Shown here in pieces: positions 24,233 to 33,511 of a stretch of DNA of 34,990 nt. A model generated the notes under the pieces. It was not told where the DNA came from. It was given only the letters and a program-made list of their open reading frames with translations, and did no database searches. The translations under genes were made by a program, and so were the position numbers. Numbering within the stretch: position 1 is the stretch's first letter; each line of letters opens with the position of its first letter. This stretch comes from Terriglobia bacterium (lineage in GTDB: Bacteria; Acidobacteriota; Terriglobia; Bryobacterales; Bryobacteraceae), in contig JAJPHS010000127.1 of the NCBI GenBank assembly GCA_021325175.1, positions 76,909 through 111,898 on the forward strand, in the 5' to 3' direction.

Positions 24233-24913
24233 TCACAACCAATACTCCCATTTTCCGGCCGCGATCACATAGGCGCTGAGGCAGGCGTTGGTGACGGCGT
24301 GCGCGAAAATCAAATCGCCCAGGCTGCGCGTTCGCATCATCCACCAGTTGTAGAGGATGCCGGCGGCGAGCCCCACGTCCCAATACGGACCGTGTTCGGA
24401 GGCGAAAAGCACGGCGACGGTCCAGAAGGAAAGCGGCGCATAGGCGCCGAGCGGGATTTTCTGAAAGTGGGGTGAAATGATCCAGCGCATCAGCCACGCG
24501 CGCCAGAAAAGTTCTTCAACGACGGGCACGATAATCACCGCGCGAACCGTACGCAGCGCCAGCAGCGAGACACTGAGCCGCGCCGCCGCCGGAAACGTTG
24601 ACTGCATGGTTCCCGTGATCGAATTCTCCAGATGATGGCGATACCCGGGGAACAGCAGATCCGGCGCGATCCAGAGAACGAACACCACAACGCCGGCCAG
24701 AGCGCTCGCCGCCGGCGCGCGCATCGAAAGATCCAGCGCCGGCCGCGCCACCGCGGCAATCAGCGCGAGCATCACCGCGAGAAACATCACCTCCAGCAGC
24801 AGCGGGGCGATCGGAACCAACTTGCGCAGCGAGAGAATCGCCACGAAGACGGCAAACGGCGCGACATATGGCGCCGATCCAACATCCGCGGCGCGGCGGC
24901 AAAAGGCGGTCAA
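24233..24913 (-). CDS. CPBP-type intramembrane protease (CAAX protease-related, exosortase-associated-like)
   Basis: A 226-residue polytopic membrane protein with the three CPBP/ABI motifs: EELFWRAW (EExxxR), FASEHG (FxxxH) and HAVTNACL (HxxxN). The N-terminal APYVAPFAVFVAIL and IAPDLLFPGYR segments resemble the CAAX prenyl protease-related family often found with exosortase (PEP-CTERM) systems. The start is TTG at 24913, overlapping the TPR-lipoprotein stop (TTGA). There is no Shine-Dalgarno sequence, but the conserved region begins almost at once, so no later start works. It probably cleaves a membrane substrate. No exosortase gene is in the window. Confidence 0.8.
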   Translation of the reverse strand: MTAFCRRAADVGSAPYVAPFAVFVAILSLRKLVPIAPLLLEVMFLAVMLALIAAVARPALDLSMRAPAASALAGVVVFVLWIAPDLLFPGYRHHLENSITGTMQSTFPAAARLSVSLLALRTVRAVIIVPVVEELFWRAWLMRWIISPHFQKIPLGAYAPLSFWTVAVLFASEHGPYWDVGLAAGILYNWWMMRTRSLGDLIFAHAVTNACLSAYVIAAGKWEYWL

Positions 24914-27222
24914 TCGCTGTGCTGGAGCAAGTCCTGAATCTTACTTTTTTCGTCCGTCGAAGGATTGTCTTTGAGCGCGGTCTCGAACTCGCGTTTGGCG
25001 CCCGATCGGTCGCCTTTCTGAAGCAGCGCCATTCCGTAATGGAAATGGAACGTGGGATTGTGCGGGTCCTTCTGAACCAGATCCGTGAACACGCGCACGG
25101 CGTCCTCGCTCATATTTTTCTTGATGTAGATCCAGCCGAGCGTATCGGCGATATCGAACGACGTCGGCGCCTTCTGCCGCGCGCGCTGCGCCATCGTCAA
25201 AGCCTGATCGAGATCATTGCCCTCCTCGGCTTTAATAAAGGCCAGGTTGTTCAGAGCCACCGGATGGTCGGGCTCGATTTTGAGGATCTGCTCGTAAATC
25301 GGCTTGGCCTGCTCGCGCTTTCCCGTGCCGTCCATCAGCAGTCCCAGTTGCAGCAGACACGCGGTGCTATTCGGCGCTTCCTGCGCGCAGCGGCGGAATG
25401 AATCGATGGACGCGTTCAGGTCGCCCTTCCGGCGCTCGGTCTCGCCCAACTGGAACAGCAGGCTGGGCGATTTCGGCTCCTTGGCGAGCAGATCTTTATA
25501 AATCGCGATCGCGTCGTCGTAGCGTTCGGCACGGACGTCCAGATGAGCCAGGAACAGCTTCAGATCGCTGCGCTGCGGCTCCTTGTTGACGGCGTTCTGC
25601 GCTTCCTTGATGGCGTCCGCCATGCGCCCTTCGCTCACCAGCGCCTCGGTGAGACCGCCCAAACCGCGATGATCGTTGGGATTGGATTTATTCAACTCGG
25701 CGAAAATCTGCTCGGCGCGTTTGTAATCCCTGTCCTGCCAGGCCAGGTAGCCGGCCTGATAGCGAGCTTCCGCGTTCTGCGGAAACACCTTACCGATGTA
25801 ATCGATTTCCTGCCGCGCTTTGTCCTTATCGCCCATGATCAGCAGCGCGCTCGACCGCAGCAGGTGAGCTTGCAAATTGTTTTGGTCGATGGCCAGAATG
25901 TCGTCGGCGGCCTTGAGCGCCTTGCCGGAGTCGTTCTTGGAAAGATAAATTTTTGCGAGCAATTCTCTTCCGGCGATGAAATCGGGCCTGATCTTGATCG
26001 CCTCTTCCAGTTGAAGCCGGGCCGCGTCGATATCAGGCGGCGTTTTGGCGATCAGAGCCCGCGCGTAATTGAAGCGGTACAGATGATTCTGCGGCGACTT
26101 CGAAACCAGCGATTGCAAATCGTTGGCGGCGATGTTGATCTGCTCGCGGTCGCCGGTGGTCAGCATCAGCGCCGCGCGCATGGCGATCGCATCCACATCC
26201 TTGGGATTATCCTTGAGCACCGTGTTCAGCATTGACCGCGCGTCCTGATTGTCGCCGTGCGCCGCGTACAGCTCCACCATGCGTTTCTGGTACAGCGCCT
26301 TGTCCTTGGGGAAATCCTTCATCGCGATCTGATACTGTTCCTTGGCGCGATCGTATTCGCGCGCGCGGAACAGAAAAAAGTCGCCGGCAAGCAGATGGCC
26401 TTCGGGAAATTTCTTCTCATCGCTCAGCCGCTGGATCACCGCGTCCAGCTCCGGCCGGCGCTGGAGAAGGTAATAATGCTGCGCCAGTTGCAGCAGGTAC
26501 TGCGCCTGGTTCGGATTGGCGTCGATCTTCTGCTTCAGCACCTGTTCGGCTTCGTCCGTCTTGTTCTGGCGCATGTACTGGATGTACAGCAGATCGTACA
26601 TCGGCGAAAAATTCTTGTGGCTGGCGATCACATCGTGCGCCAGCTTTTCGGCTTCCGGCATCCGGTTGGTGAACGCCAGCGCCTCGAAGTAGGAGATCAC
26701 CAGCTCCGGCGCAAGCGGCTTTGCGGCATTGGCCTTTTCGAACTCCGGCACCGCGTCGGCCGGCTTTCCCGAAATCAGGGCCAACTGCCCCTTGATCCGA
26801 TGGCCATCGAAGGAGTTCGGGTCCTTCTTGAGAAGCTTCCCCGTCAGGTCGTCCAGATCGGTGGCGATCTGCGAACGGTGCTTCGGGTCCTGCGCCGCCG
26901 CGACCAGATAAATGTCGCAGAGCTTGATCATCGCGTCGGTATTATCGGGCTGCAACGATACCGCGCGCTGAAGCTGATGGACGGCATCGCCATAGTTGGC
27001 CAGCTTCAGATCCGTCAGGCCCAACCGGTAATACGCTTCGCCGAAGCGCAGGTCCTTTTGCAGAGCCTTGCGATACATGATCGACGCTTCCTTGTACTTG
27101 CCCTTGGCGAAAAACTTGTTTCCGTTTTCAAGGTAGCGTTGCGCCTGTGCCTTCGGGTCCCGGCTGCACGACGCCAAAATTACGACTAGAGGCAGTAGCC
27201 TCAGTAATTTACGGCTTAACAT
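24910..27222 (-). CDS. TPR-repeat lipoprotein (PrsT-like)
   Basis: The protein is 770 residues from the ATG at 27222 (GTG 27240 is an alternative). A short basic-hydrophobic signal and lipobox VILASC put a lipid-anchored cysteine near residue 19. The rest is at least a dozen tetratricopeptide repeats, for example YLENGNKFFAKGKYKEAS near the start and PVALNNLAFIKAEEGND near the end. Size and layout resemble the PEP-CTERM-associated TPR lipoprotein PrsT, although such resemblance is easy among TPR proteins. It is likely a periplasmic scaffold. It is co-translated with the CPBP protease, a pairing that supports an exosortase-like or envelope-assembly link. Confidence 0.85.
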   Translation of the reverse strand: MLSRKLLRLLPLVVILASCSRDPKAQAQRYLENGNKFFAKGKYKEASIMYRKALQKDLRFGEAYYRLGLTDLKLANYGDAVHQLQRAVSLQPDNTDAMIKLCDIYLVAAAQDPKHRSQIATDLDDLTGKLLKKDPNSFDGHRIKGQLALISGKPADAVPEFEKANAAKPLAPELVISYFEALAFTNRMPEAEKLAHDVIASHKNFSPMYDLLYIQYMRQNKTDEAEQVLKQKIDANPNQAQYLLQLAQHYYLLQRRPELDAVIQRLSDEKKFPEGHLLAGDFFLFRAREYDRAKEQYQIAMKDFPKDKALYQKRMVELYAAHGDNQDARSMLNTVLKDNPKDVDAIAMRAALMLTTGDREQINIAANDLQSLVSKSPQNHLYRFNYARALIAKTPPDIDAARLQLEEAIKIRPDFIAGRELLAKIYLSKNDSGKALKAADDILAIDQNNLQAHLLRSSALLIMGDKDKARQEIDYIGKVFPQNAEARYQAGYLAWQDRDYKRAEQIFAELNKSNPNDHRGLGGLTEALVSEGRMADAIKEAQNAVNKEPQRSDLKLFLAHLDVRAERYDDAIAIYKDLLAKEPKSPSLLFQLGETERRKGDLNASIDSFRRCAQEAPNSTACLLQLGLLMDGTGKREQAKPIYEQILKIEPDHPVALNNLAFIKAEEGNDLDQALTMAQRARQKAPTSFDIADTLGWIYIKKNMSEDAVRVFTDLVQKDPHNPTFHFHYGMALLQKGDRSGAKREFETALKDNPSTDEKSKIQDLLQHSD

Positions 27223-27263
27223 CACTCTTAAGTAAAGCACAATCGCGGGACGGTGAAAAGGTA

Positions 27264-28085
27264 CTAACGTTCTGGCCCGTGAAGCGTCAAATCGCGTCCG
27301 GCAGGCTGATAAATGATCGCGATGACGTCGCGAACATATTGTTCATCTGAAATTTGTTCCGCCACTTCTTCCGGATAGGGCGCGGCGGCCCGAAAGCGGC
27401 GGGCCAAATCGGCGAAAAAGGTTAGCCGCGCGGCGGGATCCAGGCGATCGCGCCGGATTAGCGCCTCCAGACCGATCCGCGCCAGCTCCGGCGTGACTTT
27501 CTGGCGCAGCCGGGCCGCCAAATGCCGCGATTCGGCGAGCGTATTGTACTTTCCCGGCGCAATCCGGTCCAGATCCGGCGCCACGACCTGGGGAGTCCGG
27601 ATCACCACCGTTCCCGCCGCAAGGTCGCCCAGGCGCTGATAGTAACGGTTAAATACGCAGGCCGCGCCGCCGACCAGATAAAACAACGGCAGCCCGTCCA
27701 AAAAACGCATCAAGTTGCGGACAATGATCTGCGCCGGCTCCAGCCGCAAGCCTCGCGAATCGACCACGCGCAGGCCAAGCAAACGTTTGCCGATGGTCTG
27801 TCCGCGCCAGAACCACTCGCAGGCCGCCGCATAGACCAGCGTAAGCGCGAAATAAACAATGACGTGCAGGCCGGCGCTCAAATCCTCGGCGAAAATCGCC
27901 AGCGCGCCGAGGATTTTCTGGAGAATCGAATCGATCGCGGCGATCGCGGCGAAGTCGATGGCCAGCGCGAGCATCCGGCTGAACGGTCCGGCCAGCGGCA
28001 GCGCAAATTCGATCCCTTCCGGCGTTCGAATGCGGAGAACACTTGCTTTCCCGGGCGGGCCGATTTCCGGGTTGTTACCGGGCAA
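27264..28085 (-). CDS. RDD family membrane protein
   Basis: A 273-residue protein with an RDD domain over about residues 30-165: RMLALAIDF carries the Arg and Asp of the family name, and GQTIGKRLLGLRVVD is the second signature. It has about three transmembrane helices and a cytoplasmic C-terminal tail of about 100 residues rich in Arg/Ala. The start is TTG at 28085, with AAGGAG about 10 bases upstream, overlapping the speE-like 3' end by 11 bases. RDD proteins have been proposed as transporters or membrane chaperones; no specific role can be given. Spacing to the TPR gene is 41 bases. Confidence 0.82.
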   Translation of the reverse strand: MPGNNPEIGPPGKASVLRIRTPEGIEFALPLAGPFSRMLALAIDFAAIAAIDSILQKILGALAIFAEDLSAGLHVIVYFALTLVYAAACEWFWRGQTIGKRLLGLRVVDSRGLRLEPAQIIVRNLMRFLDGLPLFYLVGGAACVFNRYYQRLGDLAAGTVVIRTPQVVAPDLDRIAPGKYNTLAESRHLAARLRQKVTPELARIGLEALIRRDRLDPAARLTFFADLARRFRAAAPYPEEVAEQISDEQYVRDVIAIIYQPAGRDLTLHGPER

Positions 28086-29568
28086 TATCTTTCCACTCCT
28101 TTTCGTAGTAGCGGACTAAAATCTGATCGTTCAGCCGATTCACCTCCGCCTGCACCGGCTTCATGTCTTCAGGAAAATCGAAAAGCTGGGGAATAATCGA
28201 GACGGTTAAAAACTTCATGCCCGCGGGCAGCGTCGATGGCGGATGCCACTGGCTGCCGGCCAGGGTGAAGCCCCACTCGCCGAAGCTCGGAACGTAGACG
28301 TGATACGGCCAGGTCTGAAATCCGGCTTGATGAAGCGTATCGACCACGCACCAGTAGCTCTGGCGCGAAAACATCGGCGACGTGCTCTGCACCACCACCA
28401 GTCCGTTTTCGGCCACGCGCTTCTTCAGCAAACGGTAAAACGCGGAAGTGTACAGCTTGCCCAGCGAATAGCTGGTGGGATCGGGAAAATCGACCACCAC
28501 GAAATCCCAGGCGCCGCGCGTTTCCTCCAGCCACGGGAAGGCGTCGGCGTTGATCACGTGCACGCGCGGATTGCGAAACGAATAGCCGTTGAGCGGCGCG
28601 AGCATGGGATGATCCGTGAATAAGCGGATCATCTCCGGATCCAGATCGACCAGCGTAATCGATTCCAGATTCGGATACTTCAGCAGCTCTCGAACCGCCA
28701 GGCCGTCGCCGCCGCCCAGCACCAGCGCGCGGCGCGCCCACGGCAGCGATGACAATCCCGGATGCACCAGCGATTCGTGATAGCGATACTCGTCGCGCGA
28801 GCTGAACTGCAAATGGGAGTTGAGAAACAACCGTATGTCGTCTTTCCAGCGCGTCACCACGATGCGCTGGTAGCGCGTCTGGCGCTCGAAAATCACTTCG
28901 TCGGCGAAAAGCTGGTTGTCGGCCTGAGATTGAATCCAGTTCGAGGCGGCCATGCCTCCGCCGAGCAGCAGCAGCACGGCGCCGCATGCCGCCCGCAGTC
29001 CCGATCGCGACGGCAGTTGATCGCGAAACAGAAATGTGGACCACAGGGCGACCGCGGCATTAATCACTCCGAACAGAAGCGCCGCGCGAACCAGGCCAAG
29101 CTTGGGCACCAGCCACAGCGGAAAGGCGATAGACGCGCCAAGCGCGCCCAGATAATCGAACGTCAGCACGTGCGAAACCAGATCGCGCAGATGAAATCGC
29201 CCCTCGAGAATCCGCATCAGCAGCGGGATCTCCAGGCCCACCAGAATTCCAACCGCGATTACCAGCAAATAAAGCGCCAGATCGAAGGCGTGCGTATACG
29301 CGAAGGCCAGAAACAACAGCGAGGAAGAAAATCCGCCGACCATCGCCACCATCAGCTCGATTTCGACGAATCGCGCGATCAGCGAGCGGCTCAGGTAACG
29401 CGAGGCCGCGCTCCCCAGCCCCATGGCGAACAGATACGTCCCGATGACGGTCGAAAACTGCAAAACGCTGTCGCCGAGCAGATAGCTGGCAAGCGTTCCC
29501 GCGATCAGCTCATAGATCAGCCCGCAGGCGGCGATCAGCAGAACGGATAGGAAAAGAACGACGGCCAT
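28075..29568 (-). CDS. Spermidine synthase-like aminopropyltransferase with N-terminal membrane domain (COG4262-type)
   Basis: A 497-residue fusion. Residues 1-215 form about seven transmembrane helices (from ACGLIYELIAGTLASYLLGD). Residues 235-490 form a spermidine synthase fold with the nucleotide loop GGGDG (285-289), the acidic VDLDPEM, NADAFPW, and the catalytic VVVDFPDP (Asp360 and Asp363; the usual DSxDP has Phe in place of Ser). The family transfers aminopropyl from decarboxylated AdoMet to an amine acceptor. Together with the AdoMet decarboxylase gene four genes upstream it makes a complete donor-plus-transferase pair, anchored at the membrane. The acceptor could be putrescine or something unusual. 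TTATCCT in the 69-base gap before it may be an internal promoter; there is no strong Shine-Dalgarno sequence. Confidence 0.88.
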   Translation of the reverse strand: MAVVLFLSVLLIAACGLIYELIAGTLASYLLGDSVLQFSTVIGTYLFAMGLGSAASRYLSRSLIARFVEIELMVAMVGGFSSSLLFLAFAYTHAFDLALYLLVIAVGILVGLEIPLLMRILEGRFHLRDLVSHVLTFDYLGALGASIAFPLWLVPKLGLVRAALLFGVINAAVALWSTFLFRDQLPSRSGLRAACGAVLLLLGGGMAASNWIQSQADNQLFADEVIFERQTRYQRIVVTRWKDDIRLFLNSHLQFSSRDEYRYHESLVHPGLSSLPWARRALVLGGGDGLAVRELLKYPNLESITLVDLDPEMIRLFTDHPMLAPLNGYSFRNPRVHVINADAFPWLEETRGAWDFVVVDFPDPTSYSLGKLYTSAFYRLLKKRVAENGLVVVQSTSPMFSRQSYWCVVDTLHQAGFQTWPYHVYVPSFGEWGFTLAGSQWHPPSTLPAGMKFLTVSIIPQLFDFPEDMKPVQAEVNRLNDQILVRYYEKEWKDIAR

Positions 29569-29637
29569 GGAAGTCGGAAAGCGTTAGCCTTCAGGATAAA
29601 CCCTCGCGGCGTTCCGGCTTCCCGCGCCGTCCGGGCA

Positions 29638-29850
29638 TTAGTGCACCGCCGCCGCGATAATAATGCACATCCCCAGAGAAATCGCGCCGATCAGGATCGC
29701 CAGCGCGACGTTTTTGTCCTTCACGATCTCGTTCCAGAGATGATAAGGCGTCATCTTGTCGACGATCAGGAACGCGAGCATGAAGATCACAATGCCTAAA
29801 AGCGCGTAAACCACCGCATTCAGAAACTGCCCGGGTTGGAATTGATCCAT
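29638..29850 (-). CDS. DUF350 (YjfL-like) small membrane protein
   Basis: A 70-residue protein with two transmembrane helices (about 10-30 and 47-68) separated by the polar loop VDKMTPYHLWNEIVKDKN, the pattern of one DUF350 unit. E. coli YjfL-type proteins usually carry two such units, so this is a half-size form. GGAGG lies 10 bases before the ATG. DUF350 genes recur beside polyamine, SPFH and DUF4178 genes; function is not established. It may oligomerise into a membrane channel or scaffold, which is speculation. Confidence 0.82.
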   Translation of the reverse strand: MDQFQPGQFLNAVVYALLGIVIFMLAFLIVDKMTPYHLWNEIVKDKNVALAILIGAISLGMCIIIAAAVH

Positions 29851-29871
29851 TGGTTGATTTCCTCCGAGGGG

Positions 29872-30057
29872 TTATTTCCCTCCGACGTAGCGTGGATAAA
29901 AGCCGTAATGCGAGCGGTACGCGCCGGGATTATCGCGCACCGTTTTCGGAACATTCTTCAACTGATTCACCGGCGTGAGCGACCAGCCCCGATACTCCGC
30001 CCAGGTGGTTCCGGTAAGCAGCAGCAGCGAGTAAACAATATAAGCGGTGTAGCGCAT
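29872..30057 (-). CDS. Small secreted hypothetical protein within the polyamine/SPFH cluster
   Basis: A 61-residue protein with an N-terminal signal-like helix (MRYTAYIVYSLLLLTGTTWA) and a mature part of about 41 residues rich in Tyr, Pro and Asn (YRGWSLTPVNQLKNVPKTVR ... YPRYVGG). It is real by context: 3 bases after the DUF4178 stop, 21 bases before the DUF350 gene, and with AGGGGA upstream. No family is recognised. It could be a periplasmic subunit or substrate of the system. Confidence 0.7.
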   Translation of the reverse strand: MRYTAYIVYSLLLLTGTTWAEYRGWSLTPVNQLKNVPKTVRDNPGAYRSHYGFYPRYVGGK

Positions 30058-30060
30058 TCT

Positions 30061-31422
30061 TTATTCCCCTATGCTCTCGATCGCGGATCCCACGGCGCTC
30101 ATCAGCATCGACGAGGATTTCACCGGGCCGCTGCTTTGCGCCCAGCGCTGCTTTTCAAAAGACCGCCGGCGAAGACTCGAAATCGCCGGTGGGATCAGCA
30201 GCAGAATTCCCGCGATCCAGAACCAGGCGTAATTCGGAACATCGTGGCGGATCGTAATATCATACGCGACGGCATTGTACTTCTTTGTTCCGTTGCGATA
30301 CGGCCCGGCGGCGTCCATCTCCGGCTCGACGCGCAGATAGTAGCGGCCCGGCGGCACCGAGGGCAGATACGCGGTCGAGGTCTGGCCGCCTTCGGTCCAG
30401 GAGCCGTCGCTGTCGGTGCCGTGATAATAGCTCACTTCGCGGCCGAAATCGTAAGCCGAGCCGGTGTCGTCGTTGATCAGGGCGAAGTTGAAATACGCCC
30501 AGTTGTTGTTGACATCGGCATGAACAATCAATTGCAGACCGGAGGCGCGGCCGTCGATGTTGAACACCGGGGTGACGAAAGACGGCTCCGGCTGAAGCGT
30601 CGAAAAGTAATAAGAGTTGCGAAAAACGACGTTTTCACGGCTAAAAACCGCGAAAAACATCGCTAATCCGGCAAGCAGCAGCAGCATCAGCAAACAGGCG
30701 GGCCACATGCTTCCCTTGCCCTCGTACGGTGACGGCTGATTCAGATAGATGCCGCGCGGCCGCTCGGGCTTGCCGGGAAGCGAGAACGCCTGCCAGATCG
30801 CGTCCGCCGGAGTATATTCGCCGCGCGACCAGGTGATCTCATCCCGCGTCGTTTCCGAGGAAAGCACGAAAGGCGGATGAATGAAATCGTCGCAGATCAC
30901 TTTTTCGCCCACCTGCACGCGCCACGGAAATTCGCCGAGGACGAAAGAGGTCATCGCCTCGCATCCGGAAAAATGTTTGTAATGCTTGCCTTCGAAGGAA
31001 ACGGCGGGACGTCCGCCGAGCGCCAGCCGCTCCGGCATTGGCTCCAGCGGCGTCACGAAATTCCAGTGGCCCTGATATTCGGTGAGATAGCGGAAGCCTT
31101 TATAAGGATTGAACAGAAGATATTCATCCCAGGAATCGGAGTCTTCGACGGCCATCCGCTGCTGAAACCCGATCGCCTCCCATTCCGCGCCGGCGAGCTT
31201 GCCGCGAGTCCCCAGCGGAATTTTTAAATCGCAGCGCTGCGCCTCCTGAATCTGCCCCAGGATTTTAATCTCCGGTTCCGAGGTATCGAGCGTGGTCAGG
31301 CAGTTCGGGCAGACGACGGTGAGGGTGTGGCCGAAGCCGCGCAGCGCCACCGCCGCGCCGCAGTTCGGGCAGTTGAGCGCGCGAGCTTTGACCACCGGCG
31401 GCGTGACTAGAGATGATGCCAT
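30061..31422 (-). CDS. DUF4178 protein with zinc ribbon and two transmembrane helices
   Basis: A 453-residue protein. An N-terminal zinc ribbon (Cys18, Cys21, Cys38, Cys41: CPNCG ... CPNC) is followed by DUF4178-type beta domains (about 60-215; GKLAGAEWEAIGFQQR, DEYLLFNPYKGFRYL). After a linker come a transmembrane helix near 240-262 and an extracytoplasmic beta domain (about 280-395; GLQLIVHADVNNNW, PPGRYYLRVEPE). A second helix near 398-415 and a short basic tail complete it. The outer domain looks like a jelly-roll or immunoglobulin-like fold. It could link a cytoplasmic zinc-ribbon scaffold to the periplasm. Function unknown. A weak AAGG is the only ribosome-binding signal. Confidence 0.82.
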   Translation of the reverse strand: MASSLVTPPVVKARALNCPNCGAAVALRGFGHTLTVVCPNCLTTLDTSEPEIKILGQIQEAQRCDLKIPLGTRGKLAGAEWEAIGFQQRMAVEDSDSWDEYLLFNPYKGFRYLTEYQGHWNFVTPLEPMPERLALGGRPAVSFEGKHYKHFSGCEAMTSFVLGEFPWRVQVGEKVICDDFIHPPFVLSSETTRDEITWSRGEYTPADAIWQAFSLPGKPERPRGIYLNQPSPYEGKGSMWPACLLMLLLLAGLAMFFAVFSRENVVFRNSYYFSTLQPEPSFVTPVFNIDGRASGLQLIVHADVNNNWAYFNFALINDDTGSAYDFGREVSYYHGTDSDGSWTEGGQTSTAYLPSVPPGRYYLRVEPEMDAAGPYRNGTKKYNAVAYDITIRHDVPNYAWFWIAGILLLIPPAISSLRRRSFEKQRWAQSSGPVKSSSMLMSAVGSAIESIGE

Positions 31423-31450
31423 TTACGCCGGCCTTGACGCGAAACCGAAA

Positions 31451-32083
31451 TCACTTCCATCCCTCGAACTGGCGCAGATTCTTCAATTGCAGATCTTCGA
31501 ACTCCACCCATTCCCCGACAAAAAGCAGCGGCGGATTCTCACTGTAATCGATGGTCCCGAACGCCGGCCCCGATGTGCGCAAATCGGCGAAGAGCATGTC
31601 GGATTTCTCATAATAAGGAAACGGCAGCTCGCCTTCAAAGCCCTTATAGATCGCCACGGTGAGGGTGGACACCTCGAAGTCGGTGTTTTGATAGCGCAGG
31701 CGCTTGCCGCGCGAGATCTGCTCCTCGGTTGGAAGCTGGCTGCCGCCGGCCAGAAACGAGACCGCGTATTCTAATTGCGCATCCGAGAGCCACCCGCTCT
31801 GCCCGTCGGCCATCACGATGTGCCATTCGTTCCACCCGCCCTGCTCCCATTGATAAACCAACCGTCCAGTGACCTGAAATTTATTTCCCTTGTACACGCC
31901 CTCGGTGAGCAGTTGGATTGGCGAGGGATCGGGCGGCAGATCGGCGACTTTGCCCACGGTTTTCAGGTCCAGATCGGAGCGGATCAGAACCGATTTGCAG
32001 AAAGGGCAGGCGGCCTGCACCGCGCCCGACCAGCGGAACTCTACCGGGGCGCCGCAGTTAGGACAGTTCGTTCCGCGGCTCAT
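31451..32083 (-). CDS. DUF4178 protein with zinc ribbon, soluble
   Basis: A 210-residue protein with a zinc ribbon (Cys7, Cys10, Cys26, Cys29) and a DUF4178-type beta domain (VYKGNKFQVTGRLVYQWEQG, WNEWHIVMADGQSGWLSD). There are no transmembrane segments. It looks like a soluble relative of the larger neighbour's cytoplasmic half, suggesting duplication. It overlaps the AdoMet decarboxylase stop (ATGA), so the two are co-translated. Function unknown; probably a cytoplasmic partner of the SPFH protein, which also carries a zinc ribbon. Confidence 0.82.
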   Translation of the reverse strand: MSRGTNCPNCGAPVEFRWSGAVQAACPFCKSVLIRSDLDLKTVGKVADLPPDPSPIQLLTEGVYKGNKFQVTGRLVYQWEQGGWNEWHIVMADGQSGWLSDAQLEYAVSFLAGGSQLPTEEQISRGKRLRYQNTDFEVSTLTVAIYKGFEGELPFPYYEKSDMLFADLRTSGPAFGTIDYSENPPLLFVGEWVEFEDLQLKNLRQFEGWK

Positions 32084-32460
32084 CGGCGATACGGACGATC
32101 CAGCTTCCGCACCTCCACCGAACCCGCGCCGAATCGGCTTTTCAGCTCGTCTTCAAAATCCCAGTCGGGACGCGGGCGGCAGCAGAATACGTTCAGGCAC
32201 AGCGACTGAAACTCGGGGAAGGTGTGGCACGCCAGATGCGATTCCTCAAGCAAGGCAAGCCCGGTGATTCCGCCGCCCGAAAACTGGTGCCACTGGGCTT
32301 CGGCGGCGGGATGCAAATTGAGTCCTTCGACCAGGCGGCCGAACAGCGCGCATAAGGCCTGGCGATCAGACAGCGCCGCCGGATCGCAGCCGTGCGCTTC
32401 GATGATCCACTCGCATCCCGACATCACCATGCTCTTTGCTCGTTCAAAGGCGCGGACCAT
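32080..32460 (-). CDS. speD: S-adenosylmethionine decarboxylase, bacterial class 1B-like
   Basis: The protein is 126 residues from the ATG at 32460, which overlaps the SPFH stop (TGATG) and has AAGG just upstream; GTG 32481 and ATG 32430 are alternatives. The self-cleavage site is LLEESHLACHTFPE: cleavage between Glu73 and Ser74 gives the pyruvoyl cofactor. Spacing to the other catalytic residues matches the Thermotoga enzyme (Ser63, His68, Cys83) exactly: Ser74, His79, Cys94. It makes decarboxylated AdoMet, the aminopropyl donor for the spermidine synthase-like protein of the same operon. Six cysteines within about 70 residues is more than usual. Confidence 0.9.
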   Translation of the reverse strand: MVRAFERAKSMVMSGCEWIIEAHGCDPAALSDRQALCALFGRLVEGLNLHPAAEAQWHQFSGGGITGLALLEESHLACHTFPEFQSLCLNVFCCRPRPDWDFEDELKSRFGAGSVEVRKLDRPYRR

Positions 32461-33476
32461 CAGCCTTGCGAGCTTCCGCACTCCGGACAGAATTTCGCGT
32501 TCTTCGGAATCGATTTGCCGCAGTTGATGCAGAATTTCGTCTCGGCCGCTGGTGTTGCGGGAGCAGACGGCGCCGGACCACCTGCCGGCGCCGCGGGCGC
32601 CGCGGGCGGAGGCTGCTCGCCGGGACGCAGCGCATTCGCCATGGTTTGGGCCATCGTGAATCCCGCGCCTAAACCCGCCCCGATTCCGGCGATTCCGCCT
32701 TCATTCGCCGCCGCGATGGGCATCGAATTGGCCACCTGAAACTGCGTATACTTGCCCATATCGCCGAGCATGTTCATGCCGATTCTGGTATCGAGAAGTT
32801 TTTGCAGCTCTTCGGGCAACGAAAGATTCTCGACGACGAAGCTGTCGAGCGCCAGGCCGAGATCGGCGAAAACCGGCTTCAATCCCTCGCCAATGCGGTT
32901 GCCCAACTCTGTCTGATTCGCCGCCATATCGAGAAACGGCAGCGTCGATTCCGCGAACGCGCTGGTCATGCGGCCAATGATAGTATTGCGAAGCTGGCCT
33001 TCAATGTCGGGCACGCGATAGATTTCGCGCGTGCCGCTCACCTTGCTGTAAAACACCCGCGGATCGGCGATGTGCCAGGAATAGATTCCGTAGCCGCGCA
33101 GCCGCACCGCGCCGAATTCCTTATCGCGAATCGTGATGGGCGTGGCCGTGCCCCAGCGCTGATCGGTCTGGATGCGGGTGGAGAAGAAATAAACGTCGCT
33201 TTTAAACGGCGAGTTGAATTTCTTGTCCCAGTTCATCAGATCCGTCAGGATCGGTAGATTTTCCGTGGTGAGGGTGTATAATCCCGGGCCGAACACGTCG
33301 GCGACGCGGCCTTCGTTGACAAAAACCGCCATCTGCGATTCGCGCACCGTCAGCTTCCCGCCATTCATAATTTCCATGTTGTTCATGGGGAAGCGATAGC
33401 TGAGTATGCCATCTTCCGGCTCGGTGTACTGGATGACCGAGATCCATTGTCTGGCGATGAAATCGCGAAGCGCCAT
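32460..33476 (-). CDS. SPFH/band-7 domain protein with C-terminal zinc ribbon (YdjI-like)
   Basis: The protein is 338 residues from the ATG at 33476, chosen because GGAGG lies 8 bases upstream; the longer frame to 33503 includes that site. The SPFH domain spans about residues 20-250 (VRESQMAVFVNEGRVADVFG, GPGLYTL). A Gly/Ala-rich stretch near 260-285 and a Pro/Ala linker lead to a zinc ribbon (Cys316, Cys319, Cys330, Cys333). There is no transmembrane helix, as in the YdjI/virion-core-like branch of the family. SPFH proteins build oligomeric rings or membrane microdomains. It is the first gene of the polyamine/DUF4178 operon and probably its scaffold. Confidence 0.88.
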   Translation of the reverse strand: MALRDFIARQWISVIQYTEPEDGILSYRFPMNNMEIMNGGKLTVRESQMAVFVNEGRVADVFGPGLYTLTTENLPILTDLMNWDKKFNSPFKSDVYFFSTRIQTDQRWGTATPITIRDKEFGAVRLRGYGIYSWHIADPRVFYSKVSGTREIYRVPDIEGQLRNTIIGRMTSAFAESTLPFLDMAANQTELGNRIGEGLKPVFADLGLALDSFVVENLSLPEELQKLLDTRIGMNMLGDMGKYTQFQVANSMPIAAANEGGIAGIGAGLGAGFTMAQTMANALRPGEQPPPAAPAAPAGGPAPSAPATPAAETKFCINCGKSIPKNAKFCPECGSSQG

Positions 33477-33505
33477 TTGGAAGTCCTCCGGTTTCTGTTT
33501 CACAA

Positions 33506-33511
33506 AGTATA
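33506..33511 (-). promoter_or_regulatory. Candidate -10 (TATACT) for the SPFH-polyamine operon
   Basis: TATACT on the minus strand lies 29 bases before the ATG at 33476, giving a leader of about 23 bases that includes the GGAGG. The -35 region is weak. The rest of the 170-base divergent gap (33477-33646) shows no second clear promoter and no strong repeat. Confidence 0.45.

Follow-up and report, generated by a model that had tools for sequence, protein, structure and literature searches.

Which molecule accepts the aminopropyl group is the question posed by gene clusters which contain a membrane-fused spermidine synthase. Such a cluster is found in a Terriglobia bacterium, at positions 27264 to 33511 of the window, a term used here for the whole stretch of 34,990 nucleotides that was analysed (contig JAJPHS010000127.1, assembly GCA_021325175.1). 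The source genome is a 4.26 Mb draft, 94% complete. Among its eight genes, the cluster includes a membrane-fused aminopropyltransferase, a putative S-adenosylmethionine (AdoMet) decarboxylase (SpeD) and a small protein of 61 amino acids (aa), which is predicted to be exported and ends in lysine. The answer proposed here is that the transferase would act in the periplasm, and would modify the C-terminal lysine of its exported partner; we give this reading an even chance. The elements most directly concerned are the following.

29872..30057, minus strand: small protein, predicted to be exported, 61 aa; proposed aminopropyl acceptor (phmmer family)
29875..29877, minus strand: codon AAA of the C-terminal lysine, followed by the stop TAA (sequence)
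28075..29568, minus strand: membrane-fused aminopropyltransferase of the COG4262/PRK03612 type (NF002956, 672.7 bits, cut-off 472)

The C-terminal lysine

The 61-aa protein is made of an N-terminal hydrophobic segment and a basic tail, which contains the motif R-x-N-P-G-x-x-R and ends in Gly-Gly-Lys. No match was found for it in Pfam (E up to 1) or in NCBIfam (E up to 0.1). A single phmmer pass returned 90 hits across 111 loci, while an iterated profile was rejected, as it had drifted to out-of-frame open reading frames (ORFs; 214 hits); single-pass hits and motif rules were therefore used instead. Proteins were assigned to a long class by the R-x-N-P-G-x-x-R motif, and to a short class by position and a Y-x-G-W-like motif. 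All 75 unique long-class and all 8 unique short-class proteins end in lysine, under rules which name no lysine, yet were drawn up after the sequences had been seen. Unique sequences were counted, because the family-genome and contig samples overlap in organisms. As a background, lysine is the last residue in 32 (3.2%), and arginine in 194 (19%), of 1011 mechanical ORFs which are 250 aa or longer; among ORFs of 45-75 aa, 4.8% end in lysine.

A rule based on position and hydropathy, and blind to lysine, selected a lysine-ended protein in 92 of 104 unique picks (128 intervals), once 49 loci lacking a DUF4178 hit had been dropped, along with 11 intervals in which no ORF was present. For 11 of the 12 other picks, the locus does hold a lysine-ended protein, outranked under the rule; the remaining one comes from genome G591, where no separate small protein is found within 7.5 kb. 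In more distant families of the phylum, proteins found by position end in ..NGFHGGK, ..SGFRGGK or ..AGGK, according to a list which favours lysine. Some of the small-ORF lists and the printout of loci L178-L182 were likewise filtered towards lysine-ended ORFs; the counts blind to lysine are those produced by the class rules, by the automatic rule and by the gene lists (L183-L194 and the separate carrier lists). Profile A2 matches the short-class profile, a result which is partly circular, since A2 includes three short-class members.

Over 44 diverse members only two columns are invariant, one glycine and the C-terminal lysine, the body being variable. The terminal lysine is the sole lysine of the last 40 residues in 21 of 86 unique members, a set partly chosen by the HK ending, unlike the rule-based set of 75 and 8. 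At an upstream basic position lysine and arginine interchange (44 and 25 members), while the C-terminus is never arginine, which argues that conservation concerns an amine and not a charge. The codon of the terminal lysine is AAA in 45 and AAG in 32 of the 77 unique long-class genes, and all three stops are used; in the window, AAA TAA is followed by a 21-base gap. The idea of a lysine codon arising as a by-product of ATGA gene overlap was rejected on these grounds.

The same ending is found on carriers of other kinds. In three loci out of three (L180-L182) the transferase gene is directly preceded by that of a lipoprotein, about 200 aa long and ending SRGK. Those of L181 and L182 are also present in the gene list blind to lysine, in which the carrier genes of L178 and L180 are masked by an ORF on the antisense strand. 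In 5 of 13 divergent transferase loci (L183, L184, L187, L190, L191; lists blind to lysine) the adjacent gene is that of a longer lipoprotein (about 330 aa), whose tail is rich in Ser, Arg and Gly and ends GK. When its profile was run on eight divergent-type genomes, the lipoprotein was present in seven, always ending GK: in G570, G442 and G564 it shares the contig of the transferase, at a distance of about 3 kb; in G607, G423 and G546 it is on a separate contig; and in G611 it repeats L183. Profile comparison revealed no detectable similarity between the 330-aa lipoproteins and the small proteins; the same was true of the 61-mer and the one 200-aa lipoprotein tested, and the two lipoprotein types match each other in the signal segment only. 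The lipoproteins have lipobox-like starts and the small proteins carry hydrophobic anchors, which suggests export. In genome G591 the DUF4178 protein itself bears a Ser/Gly-rich tail ending SSSGSYGGYTSGGSHK (HK). At locus L177 (2467-3993), a single protein was observed with two DUF4178 stretches and a C-terminal tail ending HK, with no separate small protein nearby.

Transferase and small protein also occur in the same genome when their genes are apart. The transferase stands alone in L090, L091 and L107, and at a contig edge in L110; in all four of these proteobacterial genomes a small protein ending HK is encoded next to DUF4178, and the 1.5 kb or so downstream of it give no transferase hit. 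The short-class profile found no partner in the genomes of L060, L073, L092 and L111, of which those of L073 and L111 have long-class proteins. Over 297 genomes of the phylum, the transferase was found in 53 and the small-protein profile in 18, although in many of those 53 the protein is so diverged that this profile detects it barely or not at all. Seventeen of the 18 hits fall in transferase genomes, and the last one contains a stop codon. As judged from these sequences, the C-terminal lysine is very probably coupled in function to the transferase.

A different role for the lysine, as a structural anchor or sorting tag, would leave the transferase to act on something else. The lysine which ends Braun's lipoprotein (Lpp) is bound to peptidoglycan, a precedent for an invariant C-terminal lysine in exported proteins, and the small proteins are short, look exported and end in lysine as Lpp does, thus sharing with Braun-type proteins both this residue and, as predicted, an N-terminal export signal or anchor. 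The YkuD L,D-transpeptidase domain, however, has no hit in the window's genome (94% complete; other genomes were not checked), and an anchor enzyme would not explain why the lysine tail accompanies the transferase on carriers of unrelated kinds and also where the loci are separate. We regard the anchor as unlikely; for modification by the transferase, the chances that the lysine is itself the acceptor are evenly divided.

The transferase and its predicted topology

In the transferase, seven long helices, taken as transmembrane (TM), are followed by a spermidine-synthase domain with intact GGGDG and DFPDP (AlphaFold2 model; predicted local distance difference test, pLDDT, 88.6; predicted TM-score, pTM, 0.63). 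The two motifs had already been recognised in an earlier note on this DNA, made from the sequence alone; all 126 core rows and all 14 far rows retain GGGD and D360/D363, and 10 of 11 middle rows retain D360. The position R262 is invariant in core and middle rows and is Ile or Leu in the far group; for this reason it was dropped as a universal carboxylate-binding residue. In 12 of the 14 far rows the glutamate of the YHE motif (E265) is replaced by Ala or Ser. Loops 2-3, 4-5 and 6-7 are richer in lysine and arginine than loops 1-2, 3-4 and 5-6 in 103 of 103 rows (93 unique; core group only; mean 9.3 versus 2.5), which by the positive-inside rule would place the N-terminus inside and the catalytic domain outside.

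The gene downstream of the transferase encodes an Amino_oxidase-family flavoprotein in 52 of 69 relatives. In the host genome a single flavin amine oxidase of the RR type is found, on another contig and thus unlinked to the cluster (G000:C65:32269-33720; L117, L206:16267-17736), so that it could not enter the earlier reading of this stretch; it is 63% identical to the query and has the N-terminus RRRFL. An RR pair precedes the flavin adenine dinucleotide (FAD) motif in all 51 oxidases with a recognised motif, out of 73 rows, by a lenient twin-arginine count which requires only RR ahead of that motif. Considered together, transferase domain, lysine tail and oxidase are probably all outside the membrane, as predicted from their sequences, and the reaction would then be extracytoplasmic.

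A conventional activity must also be weighed, in which the transferase makes free polyamine (spermidine or aminopropylagmatine) in the cell and its neighbours are accessory stress or scaffold proteins. The conserved active site would fit, as would the nearest structures, which are triamine/agmatine aminopropyltransferases; moreover, out of three PF01564 places in the genome, the operon copy alone keeps DxxDP intact, as judged by eye. The other two (L115, L116; G000:C23 and C39) were rejected as intact synthases, being long multi-TM proteins with a DxxDP which, again by eye, is altered. A soluble enzyme would be enough for such an activity, however, and neither the predicted topology nor the lysine tail would be explained. 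The supply of substrate argues in the same direction: the Orn/DAP/Arg-decarboxylase family produced, in the whole genome, a single match, on another contig, which is LysA (TIGR01048, 507 bits), other decarboxylase families and amine uptake not having been checked. The 658-aa open frame concerned was rejected as arginine decarboxylase (SpeA) by the same TIGR01048 match. As the earlier note had said of this stretch, no ornithine or arginine decarboxylase of this family is found, in the window or in the rest of the genome (OKR_DC and pyruvoyl arginine decarboxylase were not searched). Hosts of such fusions reportedly lack spermidine, and a fusion of this kind is said not to complement speE. On balance, the synthesis of free polyamine seems rather improbable.

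The gene set and its conservation

All eight genes are packed on the minus strand, with intergenic gaps of -22 to +69 bases. The genes not listed above are, in order of transcription:

32460..33503, minus strand: SPFH (Band_7_1) protein with C-terminal zinc ribbon, 347 aa, YdjI-like by domain order (PF13421, 249.6 bits; PF13240, 31.6 bits)
32080..32481 (probable start ATG 32460), minus strand: SpeD, class 1b AdoMet decarboxylase homologue (PF02675, 84.7 bits)
31451..32083, minus strand: zinc-ribbon DUF4178 protein A, 210 aa (PF13785, 52.3 bits)
30061..31422, minus strand: zinc-ribbon DUF4178 protein B, 453 aa (PF13785, 61.4 bits)
29638..29850, minus strand: DUF350 membrane protein, 70 aa (PF03994, 59 bits)
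27264..28085, minus strand: RDD membrane protein, outside the conserved cluster (PF06271, 68.8 bits)

Position, strand and gene identities (SPFH, AdoMet decarboxylase, two DUF4178, DUF350, membrane aminopropyltransferase and RDD, by Pfam/NCBIfam scores) agree with the earlier note, as does the presence of three zinc-ribbon proteins, namely SPFH and the two DUF4178 proteins. Its description of the eight genes as one operon was right as to the conservation of the cluster, and too wide and too narrow at one end: RDD adjoins the transferase in none of 69 relatives and was ruled out as an operon member, and the same-strand run goes on past 27264, with a TPR gene 23 bases downstream of RDD which overlaps one further gene (24233-27240).

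Relatives of the transferase were collected by a contig scan, in which the best 80 of at least 578 were kept, with 58-83% identity over the transferase; since only the top-ranked were kept, the sample favours near relatives. These 80 carry record titles from several phyla, and such titles can be wrong for contigs of metagenome-assembled genomes. Upstream neighbours were counted in the 60 relatives with at least 4.7 kb upstream, and downstream ones in the 69 with at least 1.6 kb downstream; within-family loci with only 1.5 kb flanks were excluded. DUF4178 and the small protein are each found upstream in 57 of 60, DUF350 in 50, SPFH in 49 and SpeD in 48, so that the co-occurrence check suggested earlier has been carried out. 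The same three loci (L091, L092, L107) lack both DUF4178 and the small protein, and the transferase stands alone there. RDD and the small protein had both been supposed lineage-specific, which holds for the former (0/69) and fails for the latter, as constant as DUF4178. At locus L071 (4254-5231) the SPFH gene lies on the strand opposite to the rest of the cluster, unlike in relatives, which hints at a local inversion. In the host family, a transferase match at E <= 1e-120 is present in 26 of 61 sampled genomes, and a weak one in a further three; the transferase was not found in the two other sampled genomes of the host genus. In the class of locus L099 a match is present in 21 of 369 genomes. 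The gene set and its conservation are certain.

SpeD, which exceeds the PF02675 cut-off of 25 bits and is the only match to this family in the genome, reaches 62.3 bits with TIGR03330, below the equivalog cut-off of 75.65; by its sequence, it is likely to function as an AdoMet decarboxylase. Its Ser/His/Cys triad, spaced +0/+5/+20, is Ser81/His86/Cys101 in the 133-aa ORF; the numbering Ser74/His79/Cys94 given previously is correct if translation starts at codon 8, the ATG at 32460. According to PMC10407285, a conserved proline separates AdoMet decarboxylases from SpeD proteins which decarboxylate arginine; the protein contains HTFPE, whose proline may or may not be the one concerned.

The model of DUF4178 protein B (AlphaFold2, pLDDT 91.6, pTM 0.77) comprises zinc ribbon and DUF4178, a helix at 240-260, a beta-sandwich and a helix at 399-428. 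The two helices may be transmembrane, and the topology would follow from them. A whole-chain structural match was sought and none was found; parts of the chain weakly match beta-sandwich domains, among them the collagen-binding domain of a collagenase (TMt 0.54) and TMED1 (TMt 0.51).

The proposed reaction and known systems

In the mechanism proposed, the SPFH and DUF4178 proteins would organise a membrane complex at which SpeD produces, in the cytosol, decarboxylated AdoMet (dcAdoMet). This donor would then cross the membrane, perhaps via the seven-TM part of the transferase with DUF350, and the extracytoplasmic spermidine-synthase domain would attach the aminopropyl group to the C-terminal lysine, at the amine of its side chain. 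As the lysine side chain is a putrescine-like butylamine, it would be a chemically natural substrate; the flexible tail would then end in N6-(3-aminopropyl)lysine, a product which resembles spermidine. The flavin amine oxidase, itself exported, may remove the aminopropyl group or oxidise it further. The likely outcome would be a regulated polycationic tag, on the outer face of the inner membrane, for envelope-stress handling. Computation on the sequences lends its support to the gene set, the invariant lysine, the link across unrelated carriers, the active site and the predicted seven-TM topology; we infer the identity of the acceptor, the transport of the donor, the role of the oxidase and the physiological purpose. 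The earlier note had suggested that the aminopropyl group may go to an acceptor in the membrane or periplasm and not to free putrescine; the idea fits the findings and is partly supported overall, while the small protein as candidate acceptor had been missed.

A lipid or cell-wall amine (e.g. phosphatidylethanolamine) as acceptor, with the small protein as a membrane cofactor whose lysine tail positions or activates the enzyme, would suit a membrane enzyme with SPFH and DUF350 partners, given that PspA/SPFH systems handle the membrane (PMC8581546; PMC11237479), but it is improbable, since a positioning tail should conserve a surface, not the last residue alone, and should accept arginine, and since the carrier types have no detectable similarity apart from the terminus.

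Several observations weigh against modification of the lysine by the transferase. Concerning the partner, the 330-aa lipoprotein was missing from genome G673 in the profile search, 8 of 13 divergent transferase loci have no adjacent lipoprotein in the stretch fetched, and the most divergent transferases (L130, L146) have no lysine-ended neighbour in the lists examined; no partner was found in the genomes of L092 and L060 by the short-class profile, the long-class profile not having been tried. The export test of the small protein by charge and cleavage site is weak (77/86 and 8/86). Concerning the enzyme, the changes at E265 and R262 in the far group leave no peptide-carboxylate-binding residue common to all, and the top structural neighbours (Foldseek) are soluble triamine/agmatine aminopropyltransferases, whose substrates are free amines. 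For the topology, the basis is the positive-inside rule, with loops picked after seeing the profile, and one helix (TM7). Twelve of the 60 relatives have no SpeD in the cluster immediately upstream. A periplasmic reaction needs exported dcAdoMet, and we know of no transporter for it. Finally, both the modified product and the chemistry are predictions.

If the proposal is true, it would add a lysine modification for which no description was found in the open-licence literature, place AdoMet-derived chemistry outside the membrane and help to explain the presence of polyamine genes beside PspA and SPFH membrane-stress proteins.

As to known systems, Li, Kurihara, Kim, Liang and Michael (Biochem J 476:2579, 2019) are said to have described a functional SpeD, a membrane-fused spermidine-synthase-like protein and the linkage to DUF350. 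Spermidine was reportedly not found, speE was not complemented and a non-putrescine acceptor was proposed, which is said not to have been named. The lysine-ended carrier, the predicted outward topology and the amine-oxidase neighbour were worked out here independently of that paper. The cluster itself and the idea of a non-putrescine acceptor are already known (PMC11237479; reportedly also Li et al. 2019). In PMC11237479, an operon of 7TM-SpdSyn, DUF350, DUF4178 and lipoprotein is described, and polyamine sensing or aminopropylation of other substrates is suggested, citing Li et al. 2019; the words 'lysine' and 'periplasm' are absent from its main text. The earlier note stated that related SPFH/DUF350/DUF4178/polyamine neighbourhoods had been described in comparative genomics. 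The operons of that source, of the type PspA-CesT/Tir-SpdSyn(7TM)-DUF350-DUF4178-lipoprotein, have in common with the window the 7TM-SpdSyn fusion, DUF350 and DUF4178, found together in the window cluster by Pfam/NCBIfam. Locus L187, with DUF350, DUF2170, PspA and DUF4178 beside the transferase, is of this type by Pfam. The window differs in having an SPFH-zinc ribbon protein for PspA/CesT, SpeD within the cluster and the 61-aa lysine-ended protein for the lipoprotein; no match to PspA_IM30 or DUF2170 was found among the eight gene products (the remaining genome was not searched for either). In B. subtilis, one product of pspA-ydjGHI is an SPFH protein which partner proteins recruit to the membrane, and which carries a zinc finger close to the C-terminus (PMC8581546); the SPFH domain and the C-terminal zinc finger are shared with the window, whereas the available part of that source holds no polyamine enzyme or lysine-tailed peptide.

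The family of the 61-aa protein and the lysine-tail rule are new here, and in the open-licence literature neither the recurrence of the tail on unrelated carriers nor a C-terminal or aminopropyl-lysine modification of this kind was found described. Deoxyhypusine in eIF5A likewise carries a polyamine-derived group on a lysine side chain, an aminobutyl from spermidine, added in the cytosol to an internal lysine. In context, the closest precedent is given by yjfIJKLMC and ygiBC of E. coli, which share the DUF350 and PspA context (yjf), an enzyme coupling polyamine to peptide and a partner with a Ser/Gly/Arg-rich tail. The enzymes YjfC and YgiC, named peptide-spermidine ligase in RefSeq, with a DUF1190 protein as partner, are ATP-grasp enzymes. 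In its widest form, held here as possible rather than probable, the proposal is that COG4262-type transferases use exported dcAdoMet to aminopropylate, in the periplasm, a lysine tag at the very C-terminus (..GK/..HK) of membrane-anchored exported proteins and of lipoproteins. This would be a new post-translational modification, present at least in Acidobacteriota and Proteobacteria (by record titles) and possibly erased by an amine oxidase exported through twin-arginine translocation. The sister DUF350 operons (YjfC/YgiC) would put spermidine on glycine-ended carriers, the last residue of the carrier matching the chemistry of the enzyme. In E. coli YjfM ends HWGG and YgiB ends SMGG, so that a carboxylate, not an amine, would be needed there, whereas the carrier tail of the window system ends in lysine.

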